From Candidatus Zixiibacteriota bacterium (GTDB lineage: Bacteria > Zixibacteria > MSB-5A5 > GN15 > PGXB01): a stretch of 64,000 nucleotides of DNA. Location: NCBI GenBank assembly GCA_016933955.1, contig JAFGTT010000038.1, positions 1-64,000 on the forward strand, written 5' to 3'. Every line of letters begins with the position of its first letter. Position 1 is the first letter of the stretch. Under the pieces are notes generated by a model. The model saw nothing but the letters and a program-made list of their open reading frames with translations, did no database searches and was not told the origin of the DNA. Positions 37,110 to 55,643 of the stretch are shown one piece after another. Made by a program: the position numbers and the translations under genes.

Positions 37110-40034
37110 CTATGGACAAACCGGTTCCGAACCTTCCAAATATAAATAATGGACCAGGTAAGTGACATCAAGAATATTAATCGCTCCGTTTCCGTCGGCG
37201 TCACCCGCCTCGATTGGATCCGGTGCGGGTCCATCCTGGTAAAGGTATTTAATCAGGAAGGTGACATCAAGGATATTGACCAATCCGTTTCCGCTGGCGT
37301 CGCCGCAGACATAAGTCGGTTCGGCGGTGACATGAAGCTGGGCCGGAATATTCCAGGGATTATCCGGTTGATCGGGATCATTACTGGAAATGATAATATT
37401 CAGATTATACAGACCGGTATCTAATTCAGCGGTAGCGAATTCGCACGGGATGGTATCAGCCATGTTATATTCGAGAACGCCGGCCGTTTTGCCCATGGTC
37501 AGCCACTGGTAAGGAAGAAAGAATTTGACGGTCAGACTATCATGAAGATACTCGGAAAGATAGGCTACTTCAAGGCCATCAGTGCCATCAGCACTCTCTA
37601 TTCCCACGGCACAGGATGAAACATCGAATCCGGAAGCAATAGACAGATACTGATAAATAATTGTCCCGTCATTATATAAAACTACCTCGGCAGTAATAAC
37701 ATCGCCTGTGGCCGCGTTATATTCGGGGTAGTCAACAAACTGGATCACACAGCGACTGCCATCATTATGGATGAGAACCTGGGCGCCGGGATTGGCATCA
37801 TCGGTTGGATCGAGATCATCCCACAGCCAAGCCATGATATTATTCGGGGTGGTGGCGGTGGGCAGAGGGGTTCGCTGGCGCAGTTTCATACTGGTGGTGT
37901 CGAAGCCAATAATCCCGTTGGAGCCGACATACAATTGAGTATAGACGTTGCCATAAAAATTAAAGGCGAAACCGATATCGAACGGACCGGCATAGCTGTC
38001 ATCGTCCAGAAGGTCGGCCATATCCTCCCCGCTTCCGGTAATATCGATCCAGTCGAAAACCGGGCCCTCGGGTTCATCGGAATCAATCCAGTAGTAACCG
38101 TACTCATCAGGGCCGCCGGCATCCTTATCGACCACATACCCGCAGAGCGAAGGGGAGTCACCTTTTGGTTCATAATAGGTATAAAATTCTTCTGAATAAT
38201 CCCGACGGGCGGGAGCCAAACCGTTTTCCGATTCAAGCCGGGCTATCAGACCGCTGTTTTTAGCCGTCGATTCGGTCTTAATACTGTAGTTGAGAATCCC
38301 CAGGCCGCTATTGGTAATCACCAGAGTATCCTGAGTCGATTGATCCAGTTCCAGGGTTATATCGAAAGAGGCCGGAGTTACAGAAATGGCGGGAATGTAT
38401 TCGACCATAAAGCTGTAAATATCGGTAGTATCAACTCGACCTTCTGAATCTTTGGCGAATATATAATAATAGATCGAGGTTCCCTGAGGTTGAGTCGGGA
38501 TGAAACCATGATATTCGTCGCCGGCACCGGTTGACTCAAGCAAATCAGTGGACCAGACGGAATTGATTTCGTAGAAAAGAAGGAGAGAATCGGCAACCAG
38601 ATCGGCATTGGATTTGATAGTGCAGATTACTCCGTAGTCGTTCAAAGTGTCAATGGTATTGGATAAAGGATCATGGGTGATGGTAACACTGGCATAGGGA
38701 TCGAAACCATCAAGAGTCGTAGCCCCGGTATTATCGGGATCGAGCCAGTCTTTGAGACGGTTTGAGGATGACCCGCCGCCGTCCCATGACATGGCGAATT
38801 TACCATACCAGTCCGGAGTTATACTGGTGCATGAAGCATAACCGCCGTGAAGCTGTCCGACCACGCGGTGGTTCTGATCGAACAGGGGTGAACCGGAGGA
38901 ACCGCCTTCGGTCGTCCCGTCTTCCCAGTTACCGATCCGCCAGTGGGTGGTTCCGGAAGTCTGGAGATAATTAGCCGATGTGACAGGATCGTAATCGAAA
39001 GAGATCTTTTTAATATCACCGCTGGGGTGGTGGATGCCGGTCGAGGAAGTCGAGGCAACATCGATATTGGACCATCCGGCGAAATAAACACCATAAAATT
39101 CCGGCGGCTGTTCAGTCAATTCCAGCAGGGCAAAGTCGGACGTGGTATAGGTGGCCCTGAGGGTCGAACCCTGGACGGTCATATAGGTCGGCCCATTGGC
39201 ATTGGTGCATCCGGGACTTTCATAATTAAACATGAAAATCCAGGTGGTTTCACCGCCGAGACAGTGATTGGCAGTCAGGAAATAGGGGGTTTCATCCTGA
39301 CGGATATTGTTGACCAGGGATCCGGAACATATCCGCGAACCGCCTGCAGTCAGGATCATGGCCACGGCGCGTTTTTCATCCTGCCACGGTTCTCCCTCGG
39401 GACAGTTAATGTTATTATTGCATGACCCCGATTCGCCATAGCCTTTATCGGCCGAGGTTCGACCAAATCCGAAAACATCGCGATAACCATGTATGACACT
39501 CGAGATGGTCAATTCACCCTTGCCGCGAACATCGACCGGTTCATAATATTCAACCACGCAGGCTTCGCCGGGGGTGGGAGAAGTGGCAAACTGCCCGTGG
39601 TCTTTATTGTTGGCCGAGGTGAAGGCTCCCAGGACGGCGGTCCGGTCTTCGTTGTACACAAAGAGCCGGGCTCCATCGGGAAGACGGTATCGGCTGTAAA
39701 TCAAATTGATGGAATATGCTCCGGGGGAAACGATTTGAATTCTCCAAATATGGCTGCCATCCTCGAGTTCAGTCCAGAAACCGGAATTATCAAGATTAAA
39801 ATCGACCTCAAATGGTTTGCCGAAACGGAATGGTATCCCCAGCTTGGCTTCCTCGGCATCTTCGGCCAGCATCGCCTGGATATCGAAAGCCGGCATTTCC
39901 ATCTCCGGCGGTTCGGTGATAATGGCTTTGCCGAAACTTACCGGAGTACCTCCGGCGCTGATCTGGGCACTTGCGGAGGAACCCAGAATCAGAATGATGA
40001 TGGCCGCAAGAATAGTCACCTGTAACGGTTTCAT
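37110..40034 (-). CDS. Secreted lysyl-endopeptidase-like serine protease with dockerin
   Basis: About 974 residues. It has a signal peptide, a prodomain-like region, then a trypsin-fold (S1, PA clan) catalytic domain with His in LTANHC (H257), Asp in TSDFALLEL (D300) and Ser in GGSSGSPLF (S380). This pattern resembles bacterial lysyl endopeptidases. A beta-sandwich with ASPF-like repeats and a second beta domain with GSNGIIGF follow. The C-terminus is a duplicated dockerin: two Ca-loop motifs of the form CGDASGNGLVNILDVTFLI and [18 protein letters not shown]. The ATG at 40034 has an AGAGG site. The longer upstream frame is less likely. Confidence 0.9.
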   Translation of the reverse strand: MKPLQVTILAAIIILILGSSASAQISAGGTPVSFGKAIITEPPEMEMPAFDIQAMLAEDAEEAKLGIPFRFGKPFEVDFNLDNSGFWTELEDGSHIWRIQIVSPGAYSINLIYSRYRLPDGARLFVYNEDRTAVLGAFTSANNKDHGQFATSPTPGEACVVEYYEPVDVRGKGELTISSVIHGYRDVFGFGRTSADKGYGESGSCNNNINCPEGEPWQDEKRAVAMILTAGGSRICSGSLVNNIRQDETPYFLTANHCLGGETTWIFMFNYESPGCTNANGPTYMTVQGSTLRATYTTSDFALLELTEQPPEFYGVYFAGWSNIDVASTSSTGIHHPSGDIKKISFDYDPVTSANYLQTSGTTHWRIGNWEDGTTEGGSSGSPLFDQNHRVVGQLHGGYASCTSITPDWYGKFAMSWDGGGSSSNRLKDWLDPDNTGATTLDGFDPYASVTITHDPLSNTIDTLNDYGVICTIKSNADLVADSLLLFYEINSVWSTDLLESTGAGDEYHGFIPTQPQGTSIYYYIFAKDSEGRVDTTDIYSFMVEYIPAISVTPASFDITLELDQSTQDTLVITNSGLGILNYSIKTESTAKNSGLIARLESENGLAPARRDYSEEFYTYYEPKGDSPSLCGYVVDKDAGGPDEYGYYWIDSDEPEGPVFDWIDITGSGEDMADLLDDDSYAGPFDIGFAFNFYGNVYTQLYVGSNGIIGFDTTSMKLRQRTPLPTATTPNNIMAWLWDDLDPTDDANPGAQVLIHNDGSRCVIQFVDYPEYNAATGDVITAEVVLYNDGTIIYQYLSIASGFDVSSCAVGIESADGTDGLEVAYLSEYLHDSLTVKFFLPYQWLTMGKTAGVLEYNMADTIPCEFATAELDTGLYNLNIIISSNDPDQPDNPWNIPAQLHVTAEPTYVCGDASGNGLVNILDVTFLIKYLYQDGPAPDPIEAGDADGNGAINILDVTYLVHYLYLEGSEPVCP

Positions 40035-40370
40035 AACTGCCTCTCGTTTTTTCTTCCCATGTTTATCGCCTGTCAACGGGGATTATGTTCCGGTGTCGGA
40101 AGATTTTCCCGTGAGGTTAAGCCAATATAAAATCAATCAATTTTATTATGATGTTGAATGACTCAAATTTTAATACTTTAGTATTGTGGTCAGTTTATGT
40201 CAGTATCATCTTTAATATAGACTAAAAAAAAATCCCTGCAATCGATTTCTTAACATAAATTCGAAATCATGAATACAGAGCGGACGTTTTAAAACCTCTG
40301 TGTCGGCAAAACAGGAACTAGTCAAGGCAATTTTGGCGTAACTGAGTGAAATGTTTGCGGTTTTATAGGC
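40035..40370. other. Divergent intergenic region, protease / ccm
   Basis: This gap of about 340 bases lies between divergent genes and carries the promoter for ccmA at its right edge. The left side has the protease ribosome site. A small TAATACTTTAGTATT hairpin is visible near 40172 but has no clear role. No open frame of interest was found. Confidence 0.4.
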
Positions 40371-45612: not shown

Positions 45613-45743
45613 ATTTGTGGAGCGGCAGAAAGTGTTTGACTTTTTGCCGATATATCATTTATTAGAGCATCGCTAGTCGATACCATTTTCGCCCTTATAG
45701 TACGCGTGGTTTTCCGCTATATCCAGTATTGATCGGAGTTATA

Positions 45744-46133
45744 ATGAATATTAGTATGAATTTTACAATCGAGGCGGATCCGGATCGGAAAATAATAAGG
45801 GAGAAGATATATGGTATCTGGAAAGAAGAGACGGCCAATGACTATTATCGGGAATTTATGGAAACAGCCAAACCTCTATTAAAAGGCCCCTGGGCGAAGT
45901 TGATAGATTTGCGTAACTGGAAGTCATCATATCCCGAAATCATTGAAATTATCGGACAGCATTTAAAATGGTGCCGGGAGAACGGGATGGTTTACTCGGT
46001 TAACGTCATTGATAATCCGGTGACCTTGAGCCAGTTAAAGCGGATGTTCGGAATCGGGGGCACCGAAGAAATCAGCCGGGTGTTTCGAACTGTCGAAGAG
46101 GCCGACCGATTTCTCAAAGAGAATGGTTTTTAG
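45744..46133 (+). CDS. SpoIIAA/STAS-like small protein, copy 1
   Basis: A 129-residue protein resembling the SpoIIAA-like (STAS-related) fold, with the usual pattern of short strands and helices around KLIDLRNWKSSYPEI (about 57-71). It is a paralogue of the next gene; the blocks WKSSYPEII, WC-ENG and IDNPVT are shared. The role is unknown. Members of this fold often act as protein-binding regulators. The ATG at 45744 is chosen because a CGGAG site precedes it. Confidence 0.7.
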   Translation: MNISMNFTIEADPDRKIIREKIYGIWKEETANDYYREFMETAKPLLKGPWAKLIDLRNWKSSYPEIIEIIGQHLKWCRENGMVYSVNVIDNPVTLSQLKRMFGIGGTEEISRVFRTVEEADRFLKENGF

Positions 46134-46222
46134 AAAACGTTAAAAGAATTCAACCACTGCCGGAAACAGAAAGTATTGCCGCCAGACGGACAATTCGGAA
46201 CAAATACATCAGGAGTTGCAGC

Positions 46223-46612
46223 ATGAGCCTAAGTATGTATTACAATATTGAGATTGATGAGCAGCGCAAGATTGTCATTTCAAAGATATATAGCATCTGG
46301 AAGGAGGAAACGGCCCGCAGTTATCATGAGGATTATATGCAGGCAGTCCAGCCGCTTTTGAGGGAAAAATGGTCGAAATTAACCAATCTGGCCAACTGGA
46401 AGTCATCGTATCCGGAAATAATCCAGATAATCGGTGAGCATATGCGCTGGTGTCATGAAAACGGCGCCGTATATTCGATCTATGCCATTGATAATCCGGT
46501 TACGACCCGCCAACTCAAACAGATGATTGAGCAGGCTGGCGCCGATGAATCCGCCAAGCTTTTTCGGTCTTATGATGAGGCCGACCGATTTTTGAAAGAA
46601 AAGGGTTTTTAA
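46223..46612 (+). CDS. SpoIIAA/STAS-like small protein, copy 2
   Basis: A 129-residue protein, the tandem partner of the gene at 45744, of equal length and roughly half identical by eye. Shared blocks are IYSIWKEETA, NWKSSYPEI, IIGEHMRWC-ENG, IDNPVT-RQLK, and a C-terminal EADRFLKE-GF. Divergent positions cluster near the N-terminus and the 105-115 loop. It probably arose by local duplication. The gap between copies is 89 bp. Confidence 0.7.
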   Translation: MSLSMYYNIEIDEQRKIVISKIYSIWKEETARSYHEDYMQAVQPLLREKWSKLTNLANWKSSYPEIIQIIGEHMRWCHENGAVYSIYAIDNPVTTRQLKQMIEQAGADESAKLFRSYDEADRFLKEKGF

Positions 46613-48994: not shown

Positions 48995-51124
48995 ATGAGG
49001 ATGATCATGCTCACATCGTTCTTTCATAAAACCCGGCTATTTATCCGGGCCGCACTAATCATGACATTATTGACCGGAACAGTCTTCGGCACCATGGCCA
49101 CCAAAGAGGAGATGGATCTGGTTTGCGGCAACTGGCTGACCCATATCACGATGATGCAGGGCGATTGGGCCGGTGCGGCCGATCCGCAAAGAATATCGGA
49201 AGAAGAAATCCGGCAGGATGGAATGCTTTTGGGACGATGTTTCAAATTCGAACCGGAGGGCTGGGCGGTTATTCCCGTGTTAAAAGAAATGCCGCCGATT
49301 ATGGCGTACTCGGATGAAAACGGGATCGACTGGAATGATGCCGACGGGGTTCCGGTCCTGTTGCGGGAGGTTCTGGCCAATCGGATCGGAATGTACATCG
49401 AGCGTTACGGGAGTATCGAGGCCGCTCAGATGGATAGAGATGAAATGATGTTCGGACCGGAACATGGAATCGAGTGGGCGAGATATCTTAAAAGTGAAAA
49501 GGAGTTTCAGGATGATCTGAAGGGAAACAAACCGGCTCCGATGGATGAGTTGGGGCCGCTTCTGACCACCAAGTGGCATCAGGATTATCCTTATAATCAG
49601 TTATGCCCGTACGGCGACGGCGGGCGAACGGTGGTGGGTTGTGTGGCCACGGCCGCGGCTCAGATTCTGGCGTACCACCGGTGGCCGCCGGAGGGAACCG
49701 GAACACACGGATATTTTTGGTACGGGGATAATTCCTGTGAAGGAAGCAGTGCCTCCCAGATTATTACGGCGGACTACACCGATCCCTATGACTGGGACAA
49801 TATTGTCGACCAGTGTACCGGTGGTTGCACCCTCGATCAAATAAACGCCCTGACCGAGTTGTGTTTTGAGGTCGGGGTGGCTTTCAATATGGATTACGGC
49901 GTGTGCGGTTCCGGGGCTTACACGGCCGATGTTCAGCAGGTTTTCCCGGATCATTTTCGATATCTCAATCAAATCGAGAAGCATGATCGCTATGCCTATA
50001 ATTTGTTGAACTGGTCGAACCTGATGCAAAGCGAAATCGAGGCCGGGCGGCCAATGCAGTACCGGATCAGCAGTCATTCGATTGTCTGCGACGGCTGGAG
50101 AATGTACGGTGAGACCCACCAGGTGCATATGAATTACGGCTGGGGCGGCAGCAACAATTACTGGTACGCCATCGATGATCTGTATTGCAACTGGGACGGC
50201 TGCAGTCCCTCGGTTGAGTATGCTATGACCAATATTGTACCGGATCGCGGGGTGTATTTTTCAGCCGATACAACCTGGGGGCAGTATCCCCTTGAGGTGG
50301 AGTTTTTCGGCGAAAGCGAGCTAACGGTGGATAGCTGGAGTTGGAATTTCGGCGATGGGGGAACATCTGAGGTGCAATCGCCCAAACATCTTTTCACCCA
50401 GCCGGGGCGCTATGATGTTACACTACAAGTCAACGCCGGCGGCGAGATTCGCAGTTATGCCACCACCAAGTACATTACCGTCCTGGCCGATACCATGATG
50501 GCGATGAGTATCAAAGGGGATCCGGGGCAGTCGGTGGAGGTGGTTGTCAACGCCGCCAATACGGTGCCTCTGCGCGGAATTAAGATGCCCGTGCAGTACA
50601 GTGGACTGCTGGGGATTACATATGACTCTTTCAATACTATCGGTTGCCGGACGGAGTATTTCGACTATGCCAAAAGAATCAGTCTTGATCCAGTCAACAA
50701 AACCTGTATGTTTTCTCTCTACAACATCGAGAGTACAACCGCCGACCTGGAGGCCGGAAACGGCCCAATCCTGAAAATATATTTTACCATTCCGGCCGGA
50801 AGCAGTCTGGATCAGACCACGGAGGTAAGATTCGAGGGATACTCCTCTTATGAACCGCTTTTTTATGGTCCGATTTTAAACTACTGTCCCCTGCTTGAAT
50901 CGGCCACGATATCGCTTGATTATCTCTGCGGAGACGCCGATTTCAATGAGGCCGTTAATATCCTGGATGTGACCTATATGGTTACGTATCTTTACCGGAG
51001 CGGTCCGGAACCGATTCCATCGGCGGCCGGTGATGTTAACGGCAGTGGAGCTACGAATATTCTGGATGTGACCTACATGATAAGTTATCTTTATAAAAAT
51101 GGCCCGGGCCCGATTTGTCCCTGA
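48995..51124 (+). CDS. Secreted C10-family cysteine peptidase with PKD, cohesin-like and dockerin domains
   Basis: A 709-residue exported protein. Signal peptide residues 1-33; a pro-region; then a streptopain-like (C10) catalytic domain with Cys216 in VVGCVATAAAQ, His361 in SSHSIVCDGW and the NYGWGG block (380-385). A PKD domain (about 420-497) has the usual WNFGDGGTSEV signature. Residues about 501-640 look like a cohesin-type beta domain (GDPGQSVEVVV, then RGIKMPVQYS). The last about 65 residues are a duplicated dockerin. It is the first of three dockerin genes in a row. Confidence 0.87.
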   Translation: MRMIMLTSFFHKTRLFIRAALIMTLLTGTVFGTMATKEEMDLVCGNWLTHITMMQGDWAGAADPQRISEEEIRQDGMLLGRCFKFEPEGWAVIPVLKEMPPIMAYSDENGIDWNDADGVPVLLREVLANRIGMYIERYGSIEAAQMDRDEMMFGPEHGIEWARYLKSEKEFQDDLKGNKPAPMDELGPLLTTKWHQDYPYNQLCPYGDGGRTVVGCVATAAAQILAYHRWPPEGTGTHGYFWYGDNSCEGSSASQIITADYTDPYDWDNIVDQCTGGCTLDQINALTELCFEVGVAFNMDYGVCGSGAYTADVQQVFPDHFRYLNQIEKHDRYAYNLLNWSNLMQSEIEAGRPMQYRISSHSIVCDGWRMYGETHQVHMNYGWGGSNNYWYAIDDLYCNWDGCSPSVEYAMTNIVPDRGVYFSADTTWGQYPLEVEFFGESELTVDSWSWNFGDGGTSEVQSPKHLFTQPGRYDVTLQVNAGGEIRSYATTKYITVLADTMMAMSIKGDPGQSVEVVVNAANTVPLRGIKMPVQYSGLLGITYDSFNTIGCRTEYFDYAKRISLDPVNKTCMFSLYNIESTTADLEAGNGPILKIYFTIPAGSSLDQTTEVRFEGYSSYEPLFYGPILNYCPLLESATISLDYLCGDADFNEAVNILDVTYMVTYLYRSGPEPIPSAAGDVNGSGATNILDVTYMISYLYKNGPGPICP

Positions 51125-51194: not shown

Positions 51195-51317
51195 CAACCA
51201 ATATTATAATAAATAAGTCATAAATGCGGGGTGTTTCATTTTACCGCTTTTACTACTGTTTATATAATGCCCTAAGTGGAGATAATTCCAAAACTCTATA
51301 ACCGGGAGGAAATCGGT

Positions 51318-53582
51318 ATGAAAACTCTTGGATTATCGGCAGGTCTTTTTTTGGTACTTATTTATCTGACAATCTGTGGATTGGCATTCGCCGAGAGAAC
51401 GGTCGTATTAACCAATCAAGAGGCGATCCATTCGATAATAATCTCCGAAAAACCGGAACGGGCGTCAATAAAAATGGAAGAGATCAAAGTCGATCCGATC
51501 GGTTTCAATCCAAAGGATACCCGAGACACCTCGATCTACTACCGGTTACATCCGGCTCTGGCTTATGACAATGCGGAAAACCTGATTCAGGGATTTGAAT
51601 ATTATCCGGATTTGGCACCGCCGAGTGTTCTTTACTGGCGGGGACGGATCGATGACGACAGCGACTGGGCCTCGACGGCCTATCTGGATCTGTACGGATC
51701 CACCTATCCGACGATTGATTACTGGGGATCCGGGACCCAGTTTTACGGGGCTTATGTCGCTCCGTTCGCGTTCCAGAACGGCGGGGCCTTTATGCTGATG
51801 AGTTTCCCGGGACCGGTTAATGGAGGGAGCTGGGAGGGTTGGTGGGCCAGTTATGCCTCGCAGGGATGGCACAGTATTAAAATGATTGAACTGGCCGCCG
51901 ATGACGGGGCTCAATCATGGAACTGGGGTTTCATGTCGGCGGTGGCCAGCCGCGATTACCCTGGTTATGATTTGTTTGATGCGCCGCATATTTTCTATCA
52001 GACCGATGCTCTCGGTTACAGCATGATCAGTTATTACTCCGCGGCCGACAGCTGTCGGACAACCTCGGCGGCGATTGACCATGTCACTTCGAAAACATAT
52101 GCTGTTTATGACCGCTATGACGATACCGATGAGCAGTATAAATTGTTTATCCGGCAGGATTATTTCGCCAACTGGGATTCGACCACGACCGCCCTGGAGA
52201 AATCCTTTACCGATCCCGATCAGCATATTATTTACCCCGTGGTAGCCGCCAACAACGACAATCTGGTGATATTGGCCGCAACTTACAACGAAAGCACACC
52301 GGGTGATTATGATATCATCTGCTGGTATACCGATGATGGCGATCTCGATCATCTGACCAACAGCAGTTATGTGGCCGGATCGGTTGACGGTGAAAATTAC
52401 CCCGAGCTGGACTATGTCGGGGGGACGACTTTCGTTTGTACTTTTATCAGGGATAAGATTCTGTACGGCAGTCAAACCGATAACGGGGGCGCCGACTGGA
52501 GTACGCCCGAACCGATCAGCGAAACCGGGCACGAGGTGGTCGAGGATTATCGAAGTGCCGATATCGGTGAGAATGGTGTTCGAGTCGTTTACTCCTATAG
52601 TCTGATTGGCGACGATAATGTTTATCTGCAAATGGTTCGTTTCGATTCAATCGATTACGATGGTGATGGGATTTATTTCTATGATGATAACTGCCCGCTG
52701 ATGAGCAATACGGCCCAGACCGACACGGACGGTGACGGTTGCGGTGACGTTTGCGATAACTGTCCGTCACTGGCGAACCCAAATCAACTCGATGAGGATA
52801 GCGACGGGGTCGGAGATGACTGTGACAATTGCCCGGCGCTGGCCAACTCCCTGCAAACCGATACCGATGGCGACGAGGTCGGCGATGAATGCGACAACTG
52901 CCCGACTGTGGCCAATGTCTCACAAGATGATGCCGATGGCGATACGATCGGGGATGAGTGCGACAATTGCCCGGCGGCGGCCAATCTCGATCAGCTTGAC
53001 GGGGACGGTGATGGGATGGGCGACGTATGTGATTTATGCACCGATAGTGATGGTGATGGCTATGGAGATCCCGGTTATCCGGGCAATACCTGTACGGTCG
53101 ATAATTGTCCCGATATTTACAACGATGATCAGGCTGACGGCGATGGTGACGGGGTGGGTGATGTCTGTGATAATTGCCTCTCGATTGCCAATGCCGATCA
53201 GCTCGATGCCGATGATGACGGTCTGGGTGACCCCTGTGATGACTGTACCGATATCGATGGCGACGGATATGGCGACCCGGAATATCCGGCCAATACCTGT
53301 CCGGACGATAACTGCCCGCGGGTGGCCAACCCGGATCAGACCGACAGTAATTTCGACGGAATCGGCGATGCCTGTGATTATATCTGCGGCGACGCCGATG
53401 GAAGCGGGGCGGTTAATATCCTGGATGCCACCTACTTAATAAACTACCTTTACCGCTCCGGCCCGCCGCCGACACCACTTGATGAGGCGGGTGATATGAA
53501 TGGGAGCGGCAGTATAAACATCCTGGATGTTACCTACCTGATAAATTACCTTTATCGCGGGGGACCGGCGCCGGTGTGCTGA
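51318..53582 (+). CDS. Secreted thrombospondin-3-repeat protein with dockerin
   Basis: About 754 residues. Signal peptide ([16 protein letters not shown] and on), a beta-rich domain of about 400 residues that I do not recognise, then about ten thrombospondin type-3 units such as [15 protein letters not shown] (about 470-690). It ends with a duplicated dockerin ([19 protein letters not shown] and [18 protein letters not shown]). The repeats bind Ca2+. The N-terminal domain probably sets its function. The ATG at 51318 has a GGGAGG site. A tandem DNA repeat follows the stop. Confidence 0.88.
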
Positions 53583-53623: not shown

Positions 53624-53849
53624 GAAGAATGTTCTGAAACCGGGAGCGCCATTTTTCCGTATTTATTTTTGACTGAGATGCGGACTATTACGTCTATCAG
53701 GGGATCAGCGGTTTAAGATAATGCTTTAATTTTGAAACCTGTGGACAGAAGAGATCCGATCTCAGGAGTATAGAAATTTGATTTGCCTGCGGATCGTAAC
53801 AGGGTGGGTTGATGACGGCTATGGCTAATTTTATGGGGTGAGGAGGCTT

Positions 53850-55643
53850 ATGAATCGGCGACGAGTATTGCGGGAGGGGCGGATATTAATAATGATCCTG
53901 ATCGGTTTTATTGTATTTGGAACCGGGCGAGCGGCTGTTTTTTCCAAATCCGGGATTTTTATCGGGGGAAATTGCAGGAATATCGTTGCCGATCTTAATA
54001 ATGACGGTCACAATGATATTATTGCCGGGGCCGTTTACTTGTTCGACGACACCGGATTTATCTATTATGATTCCCTGTCGGTCGGGATGGGAAGCAATGA
54101 GCTGGGGGATCTGGATAATGATGGCGATCTGGATTTTGTTCAGACCGACAGCGATCATGTTTATATATATTTTAATGATGGAACCGGTCATTTCATATCC
54201 GATTCGGCCTATGATGTCCGTCCGGGGGCAGTCTATGCCGGGCGGGTTCGGGATCTGGATAATGATGGTTATCTTGATATCGTTGTCAATGGCCATGGTT
54301 TCGATTACCCGGCCGATATACTCTGGAATCAGGGTAACCGCACCTTTTTTGATCAGGCCATCAAACCGAATGGAATTTCCAAGGATGTCGATGTCGGCGA
54401 TTTCGACAATGACGGCGATTATGATCTTCTATGGTCCAATAACGATAATGCTTCAGCCGTATATGTCAACAAAGGCGGCCGTGATTTTTCGGGGCGGGTA
54501 CTCCTGAGGGATACATATGTTTCGGGATCGCCCTGGAGCACTTTCACCGATCTCAATAATGACGGTTTTCTGGATATTCTTCTGATGGAGTACCTGAGTA
54601 GTTCCACTTATCGTTATCTTAACACCACGACCGGGGATTTTACACTTCTGGATGATCCGTTGGGAGTGCCGGGTGATTTCGGGTATTTTAGATCGATTGA
54701 TATTGACTGCGATGGTGACGATGATGTGGCGCCGAAATATCTAAACAACGGGACCGGTTTTCTCGCTTCCGCAGGCGAATCCTGGCCGTACTGGCGCGGG
54801 CTGGGTGATCTTGATAATGACGGACTTCCTGATCAGGCCGGATGTGACGGATATATATATTACAATATCCTTGATACGATCATCAATCTGGCCCCGACAA
54901 CGCCGGGCGGGCTTTATGCCGCCGCCGATTCCGGTTCGGTGACTTTTCACTGGAATCCCGCTTCGGATGATCATACCCCGGTGGCTTTGCTCAAGTATAA
55001 CCTTCGGGTCGGAACGGTTCCCGATGGCCAGGATATTATGTCAGGGATGACGCCGGGCTGGTGTCCCAATGCGGAGCATAATACAAGTTGGACGATCACA
55101 ATCGATATGACGCCTTATTGCGTGATATACTGGTCGGTTCAGAGTCAGGATGGCAGTTATCAACGATCCGAATGGGCGGCTGAGACGGTTGCCCGGTATG
55201 ACAGCGATGGAGATCAGTTCGGTTATGCCTGTGATAATTGCCCTGAGACTTATAATCCCGATCAGGGGGATGTCGATGATGACGGGACCGGCGATGTCTG
55301 CGATAACTGCCAGCTGGTTTACAATCCGGCTCAGATTGACAGCGATTTCGATCTGGTTGGTGATTCCTGTGACAATTGCCCGGACATTCCCAATCTGGAT
55401 CAGACCGATACCGATCAAGACGGCATCGGCGATGCCTGTGAATTTGTCTGCGGCGACGCCGACGGTGGCGGGTCAGTCAATCTACTTGATGTGGCCTTCA
55501 TAATAAATTATCTTTATCGGGGCGGATCGGCTCCGGAACCGGTGCAGGCGGCCGATGCCGATGGCGGTGGAACAGTTAATATTCTCGATGCGACGTTTTT
55601 AATTAATTATTTGTATCGTGCCGGACCGGCGCCGATTTGTTAA
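53850..55643 (+). CDS. Secreted FG-GAP/VCBS, fibronectin-III and thrombospondin-3 protein with dockerin
   Basis: About 597 residues. A signal peptide is followed by an FG-GAP/VCBS beta-propeller of seven Ca-binding units such as [10 protein letters not shown] and [11 protein letters not shown] (residues 35-340), then a fibronectin III-like stretch ([21 protein letters not shown] onwards), three thrombospondin-3 units, and a duplicated dockerin ([17 protein letters not shown] and [17 protein letters not shown]). It is a typical surface or secreted adhesion-type protein. The ATG at 53850 has an AGGAGG site just upstream; an in-frame GTG at 53838 is an alternative. Confidence 0.88.

Follow-up and report, generated by a model that had tools for sequence, protein, structure and literature searches.

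A Zixibacteria C10 peptidase with a predicted cohesin-fold domain and a dockerin in one chain, and a candidate proteolytic counterpart of the cellulosome

The window analysed here, a 64,000-nucleotide stretch of contig JAFGTT010000038.1 from a Candidatus Zixiibacteriota genome, encodes a 709-residue protein that combines a predicted C10 cysteine peptidase with a PKD domain, a domain predicted to adopt the cohesin fold, and a dockerin. The last three form a tail that recurs within the source genome and across the phylum, mostly on proteases, a recurrence that hints at a cellulosome-like system for digesting protein. The original prediction for this gene placed a cohesin and a dockerin in a single chain, and both were located in its open reading frame, which has the following features.

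48995..51124, + strand: whole open reading frame, 709 aa, with hydrophobic leader, C10 peptidase, PKD, cohesin and dockerin (ORF list, Pfam)
48995..49099, + strand: putative signal peptide, approximate, residues 1-35 (hydrophobic stretch FIRAALIMTLLTGTVFG, by eye)
49241..49342, + strand: weak Inhibitor_I69-like propeptide segment, residues 83-116 (Pfam E 0.046, under the curated cut-off)
49574..50167, + strand: predicted Peptidase_C10 (streptopain-type) catalytic domain, residues 194-391 (Pfam 8e-49)
50309..50482, + strand: PKD domain, residues 439-496 (Pfam PKD_4 1.7e-12)
50474..50917, + strand: predicted cohesin domain, residues 494-641 (AlphaFold2, Foldseek, VIA-align, profile A3)
50930..51091, + strand: predicted type I dockerin with two F-hand repeats, residues 646-699 (Pfam Dockerin_1 4.1e-7; genome search 3.6e-8)

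The protein is assigned to the C10 peptidases, with predicted proteolytic activity, by its domain match and by a catalytic Cys-His pair (Cys216 and His361) that is invariant in an alignment of eight orthologs. Seven orthologs (L020-L026, of which L025 and L026 are incomplete where contig ends cut them) show 43-52% identity and have the peptidase, PKD and cohesin-like domain in common; no relatives were found in the viral contigs searched. The dockerin is complete, with two F-hand segments and two predicted helices, and both halves show the D1, N/D3, N9, D12 pattern, as predicted for a type I dockerin (PF00404), a duplicated calcium-binding F-hand segment of ~22 residues. The cysteine peptidase and C-terminal dockerin of the original prediction are both borne out by these matches. 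Other C10 proteins are built differently downstream of the catalytic part: in a Zixibacteria ortholog (L027:4881-7088) TSP3-type repeats and an Ig-like segment replace the PKD and cohesin while the dockerin is kept, and in C10 peptidases of other bacteria (L029-L033) FG-GAP or other repeats and a T9SS-type sorting domain replace the dockerin.

The domain preceding the dockerin scores below the Pfam Cohesin cut-off of 24.1 bits, both in the whole protein (residues 506-616, E 0.099, 13.3 bits) and when excised (PF00963, E 0.004, 17.8 bits), and it is therefore described here as a divergent domain with the cohesin fold, belonging to a wider family. An AlphaFold2 model built from eight sequences (the window domain and those of L020-L026) has a pLDDT of 88.7 and a pTM of 0.82, and predicts the cohesin jelly-roll fold. 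The best 50 matches listed by Foldseek against the PDB are cohesins (best E 7e-10), as are all 50 rows listed by VIA-align, which re-scores Foldseek's own candidates. The top VIA-align match is the Acetivibrio cellulolyticus ScaB cohesin (Z 17.9, 2.1 Å, 138 residues aligned), and the non-cellulosomal cohesins of Archaeoglobus fulgidus and Clostridium perfringens are also among the matches. A PKD or other Ig-like sandwich, the outcome that was to count against the original prediction, was rejected, with no non-cohesin among the best 50 of either structural list and the PKD present just upstream as a domain of its own. The cohesin had been placed at residues ~501-640, a few residues from the boundaries found here (494-641).

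Identity between this domain and solved cohesins is ~10-16%, and the low value may mean that dockerin-binding residues have been lost. Searched as a single sequence against PDB sequences, the domain gave no match, and a profile of the eight sequences gave a C. cellulolyticus cohesin as its sole match (E 0.57); since both searches are weak, the case for a cohesin rests on the structure prediction and on a profile of the wider family. The profile of the eight orthologous domains recovers proteins of the same genome that also score above the Pfam Cohesin cut-off. Profile A3, which joins window-type domains with the genome's other cohesin-like domains, finds a cohesin as its best PDB match (2.7e-7); its matches are nearly all cohesins or scaffoldins, and all those better than E 0.1 are. 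Because some members of A3 are already Pfam cohesins, the link has two steps, from the window domain to the family and from the family to solved cohesins. Pro39 of the domain, on a strand of the predicted binding sheet, is kept in 40/40 sequences, a conservation that may be structural rather than related to binding. No CBM family scores above its Pfam cut-off in the domain.

Three further dockerin proteins are encoded in the window.

51276..53582, + strand: downstream neighbour with TSP3-type repeats (by eye) and a C-terminal dockerin (5.4e-13)
53838..55643, + strand: next neighbour with FG-GAP-type and TSP3-type repeats (by eye) and a C-terminal dockerin (9.8e-13)
37113..40082, - strand: fourth dockerin protein of the window (dockerin 4.6e-10 at 37143-37304)

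Elsewhere in the window, two adjoining similar reading frames of 129-134 aa (45729-46612) with the common core W-K-S-S-Y-P-E-I-I-x-I-I-G are a tandem duplication.

The wider set of dockerin proteins expected from the window extends through the source genome (3.38 Mb, with closest relatives among genome contigs mostly in Candidatus Zixiibacteriota). Profile searches give 80 dockerin matches at E <= 0.01 and ~72 reading frames with dockerin repeats, against 13 cohesin domains in 12 proteins with profile A3 (E <= 2.4e-9); Pfam contributes another one or two (C7, C22:52079), so that the proposed genome count yields 13-15 cohesins and ~72 dockerin proteins. In 53/72 of these, no more than 15 residues separate the dockerin from the C-terminus. 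At least 20 are peptidases by their Pfam matches, from families S8 (6), C25 (4), C1 (3), M14 (3) and M28 (2), with single C10, M1, M6, M12-like, C39-like and trypsin-like members. FG-GAP, TSP3, PAD_porph, CotH and others make up the non-peptidase families, with no glycoside hydrolase among the Pfam families listed. Over half of the dockerin proteins have no recognisable enzyme, and the enzymes recognised by domain match are mainly peptidases. With profile A3 the largest number of cohesins in one protein is two (C4), though weaker cohesins may escape it, and no large multi-cohesin scaffoldin was found in the source genome. The set, as far as the searches recognise its members, departs from a cellulosome in two respects, having neither a scaffoldin with several cohesins nor dockerin proteins that are chiefly plant-cell-wall enzymes. 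Proteins with cohesin-like domains on C22 (L093) and C7 (L050) carry, after these domains, an odd internal dockerin-like sequence, GDINLNGxxYEIxDxVxFTNYF, which recurs in several proteins and to which the dockerin model gives no score. A 202-aa frame (C12:68101-68448, L114) has a leader and one cohesin-like domain, without dockerin or sorting domain.

The source genome also shows the features expected of a T9SS-anchored cohesin system, as judged from profile matches: ~50 T9SS sorting domains, the translocon gene SprA (2.4e-162), and cohesin proteins that carry a sorting domain (C4, with two cohesins, C30, C38:133157, C15, C22 and C28). When the lists of this genome were compared by eye, dockerin and sorting domain co-occurred only in C28, a 979-aa protein (L051:648-3584) ordered cohesin, dockerin, T9SS sorting domain.

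The PKD-cohesin-dockerin tail is present on four proteins of the source genome (288-298 residues): the window C10 protein, subtilases (S8) on C1 and C9, and the FG-GAP protein of C32. A 955-aa chain on C8 (L078:1471-4335, - strand) has a cohesin flanked by two dockerins. The number of proteins in this genome with both a cohesin and a dockerin (6-7) is by our own estimate about that of random mixing among secreted proteins; what counts as evidence is the conserved order and length, and not this number by itself. An AlphaFold model of the whole tail has a pTM of 0.66, with residues 195-210 poorly predicted, and a structure search with it returned mainly the cohesin part and then some unrelated Ig-like chains, and was uninformative on domain placement.

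Across the phylum, the window-type domain (profile A2) is found in 56/60 sampled genomes, and the wider cohesin family and dockerins in 57/60 each. A dockerin-like sequence directly follows the cohesin in all 29 loci examined, usually after 4-10 residues where the dockerin motif is regular; some of these loci have a divergent dockerin form that a simple motif misses. Among 33 phylum tail carriers scanned with Pfam, all have the PKD, 11 have C10 and 11 S8 peptidase domains, three C1, three trypsin-like and two FG-GAP, and the tail therefore belongs mainly to peptidases. Cohesins and dockerins are missing from the same three genomes (Fisher 2.9e-5, kinship ignored), which belong to no more than two families and may just have shed the entire secreted set. 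Per-genome counts of the two modules, with up to the best 88 dockerins counted, correlate weakly, with a Spearman coefficient of 0.34 over all 60 genomes and 0.22 (p 0.09) over the 57 in which both modules occur.

The dockerins of the source genome have a common signature, with Ile-Leu at positions 10-11 in 109/132 half-repeats (72 proteins) and Ile at position 17 in 104/132. Signatures in four other genomes, taken from the best-scoring dockerins of each, are Val-Ser, Leu/Ile-Gly, Val-Ser after Lys, and Ile-Ala, each common within its genome, and the tail dockerins of these genomes largely match the local form. Identity at eight dockerin positions is 0.74 within and 0.38 between genomes (0/2000 shuffles). 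Such genome-specific signatures would fit one receptor specificity per organism; they could instead reflect recent spread of the module.

Taken with the architecture of the window protein, these observations lead us to a reading that we hold with slightly better than even confidence: the protein would be a secreted peptidase that is both cargo and a chain extender or branch point in a mainly proteolytic, T9SS-based surface analogue of the cellulosome. Its dockerin would plug into the cohesin of another protein, and its cohesin would serve as the socket for one of the ~72 other dockerin proteins. T9SS-exported cohesin proteins, with a leader, one or two cohesins and a sorting domain, would form the base of the chain, and proteins with both modules would lengthen or branch an assembly on the cell surface. 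The window dockerin starts ~four residues past the last cohesin strand. In known cohesins, the last strand lies on the sheet opposite the dockerin-binding 8-3-6-5 sheet; with the strand so placed, binding in cis looks unlikely and trans pairing is preferred. We infer binding, trans over cis pairing, surface location, polymerisation and the proteolytic role. In favour of the reading are the predicted cohesin fold, the same ~288-aa tail on four unlike proteins, the dockerin directly after the cohesin in 29/29 loci and the PKD on 33/33 carriers scanned, the absence of both modules from the same three of 60 genomes, and a dockerin signature shared within the genome, as expected with a common receptor. 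The T9SS sorting domains, SprA, the proteins joining a cohesin with a sorting domain, and the dominance of peptidases among recognisable enzymes of the dockerin proteins point the same way. Against such an assembly count the sub-threshold Pfam score of the cohesin, its low identity, the lack of a large scaffoldin and the weak correlation of module counts. A farther-reaching version, to which we give little credence, holds that Zixibacteria have a proteolytic counterpart of the cellulosome that dispenses with a large scaffoldin, in which T9SS-exported single-cohesin proteins are the sockets and peptidases with cohesin and dockerin extend the chain by themselves; in its strongest form, dockerin proteins, having no T9SS signal themselves, would be carried across the outer membrane by pairing with a cohesin protein equipped with such a signal.

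Several of the same observations bear on other functions for the tail. A serious though less probable one is that the cohesin-fold domain is a spacer that stiffens or presents the dockerin, like the X modules of clostridial X-dockerin dyads, with the dockerin alone binding. The fixed order and length of the tail, the short linker, usually of 4-10 residues, that is conserved from cohesin to dockerin, the PKD, itself a spacer domain, and the low identity to binding cohesins all favour this. The domain is nevertheless a cohesin by predicted fold, with no better X-module or other sandwich match among the matches listed, and conservation is strong on the strand of the predicted binding sheet (Pro39, 40/40), though this may be structural. 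That the domain binds a carbohydrate or other ligand at the surface, as carbohydrate-binding modules with a related beta-sandwich do, is very improbable: cohesins and several CBM families have the same jelly-roll architecture, but the structural matches listed for the domain consist of cohesins throughout and no CBM family reaches the Pfam cut-off in it.

The near-exclusive occurrence of dockerins and T9SS sorting domains (only C28 has both), the dockerin at or near the C-terminus in most of the ~72 proteins, and the C10 relatives L029-L033, where a T9SS-type sorting domain takes the terminal place of the dockerin, would fit a different role, which we regard as improbable, for the tail or the dockerin alone: an outer-surface sorting or retention tag that replaces the T9SS sorting domain and builds no multi-enzyme assembly. 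This would leave the cohesin in the same chain unexplained, and dockerins elsewhere are binding modules rather than sorting signals. If the tag acts through cohesin binding, it is compatible with the cargo-and-extender reading.

Related arrangements have been described in other lineages. ScaO/ScaP scaffoldins of A. cellulolyticus and Pseudobacteroides cellulosolvens have a peptidase, a cohesin and a dockerin in one chain, and an S8-like domain of A. mesophilus carries a C-terminal Coh1-Doc1 unit (PMC3413522, PMC5590126, PMC11557425). The window protein has the same three modules; those proteins belong to Firmicutes cellulosomes with large scaffoldins and have FN3 or PPC modules, whereas here the modules are PKD and C10 and the tail is found on several proteins per genome, phylum-wide, without a large scaffoldin. 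The view that cohesin-dockerin pairing around proteases in this lineage is not well described thus holds for Zixibacteria, as no paper joining Zixibacteria with dockerins was found within the literature searched; it does not hold for peptidase cohesin-dockerin chains as such, which are on record in clostridia (PMC5590126, PMC11557425). In the Cloacimonadota, a cellulosome-like system has been proposed for Ca. Stygibacter, with S8/C25 peptidases bearing C-terminal dockerins and a 3,755-aa scaffoldin with tandem cohesins, CBM domains and a T9SS-type C-terminal domain (PMC8542988). Secreted dockerin peptidases are common to both systems, as is a T9SS-type C-terminal domain on a cohesin protein, in contrast to the one big scaffoldin there and the single or double cohesins, and peptidases bearing their own cohesin, here.

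Non-cellulosomal cohesin and dockerin modules are reported from A. fulgidus (Peer 2009, Bayer 1999, as relayed in PMC9012536). They likewise lie outside cellulose degradation, and one is a structural match of the window domain (2xdh, Z 16.1, 1.8 Å); they are archaeal and, as far as that account goes, not part of large module sets, unlike the tens of dockerins per genome found here. Numerous proteins with dockerins and cohesins occur in ANME archaea, and large scaffoldins are reportedly lacking in those archaea that have such modules. The cohesins of C. perfringens glycoside hydrolases (2vo8, 2jh2, 2w1n; Z 14.3-14.9) are also non-cellulosomal and part of secreted hydrolases, though not of peptidases, and are 8-9% identical to the window domain. 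Peptidase-dockerin proteins with a T9SS-anchored scaffoldin have thus already been proposed, for Cloacimonadota (PMC8542988); what is new is a phylum-wide, peptidase-borne PKD-cohesin-dockerin tail, paired with T9SS-tagged single cohesins.

If the predicted binding is real, an entire uncultured phylum would employ a plug-and-socket assembly chiefly for the degradation of protein rather than cellulose, and the assembly could extend by chaining the enzymes themselves, without a long scaffold. The system would also make it possible to test, on a concrete example, how dozens of secreted proteins that lack a T9SS signal might reach, or stay on, the surface of a diderm cell.
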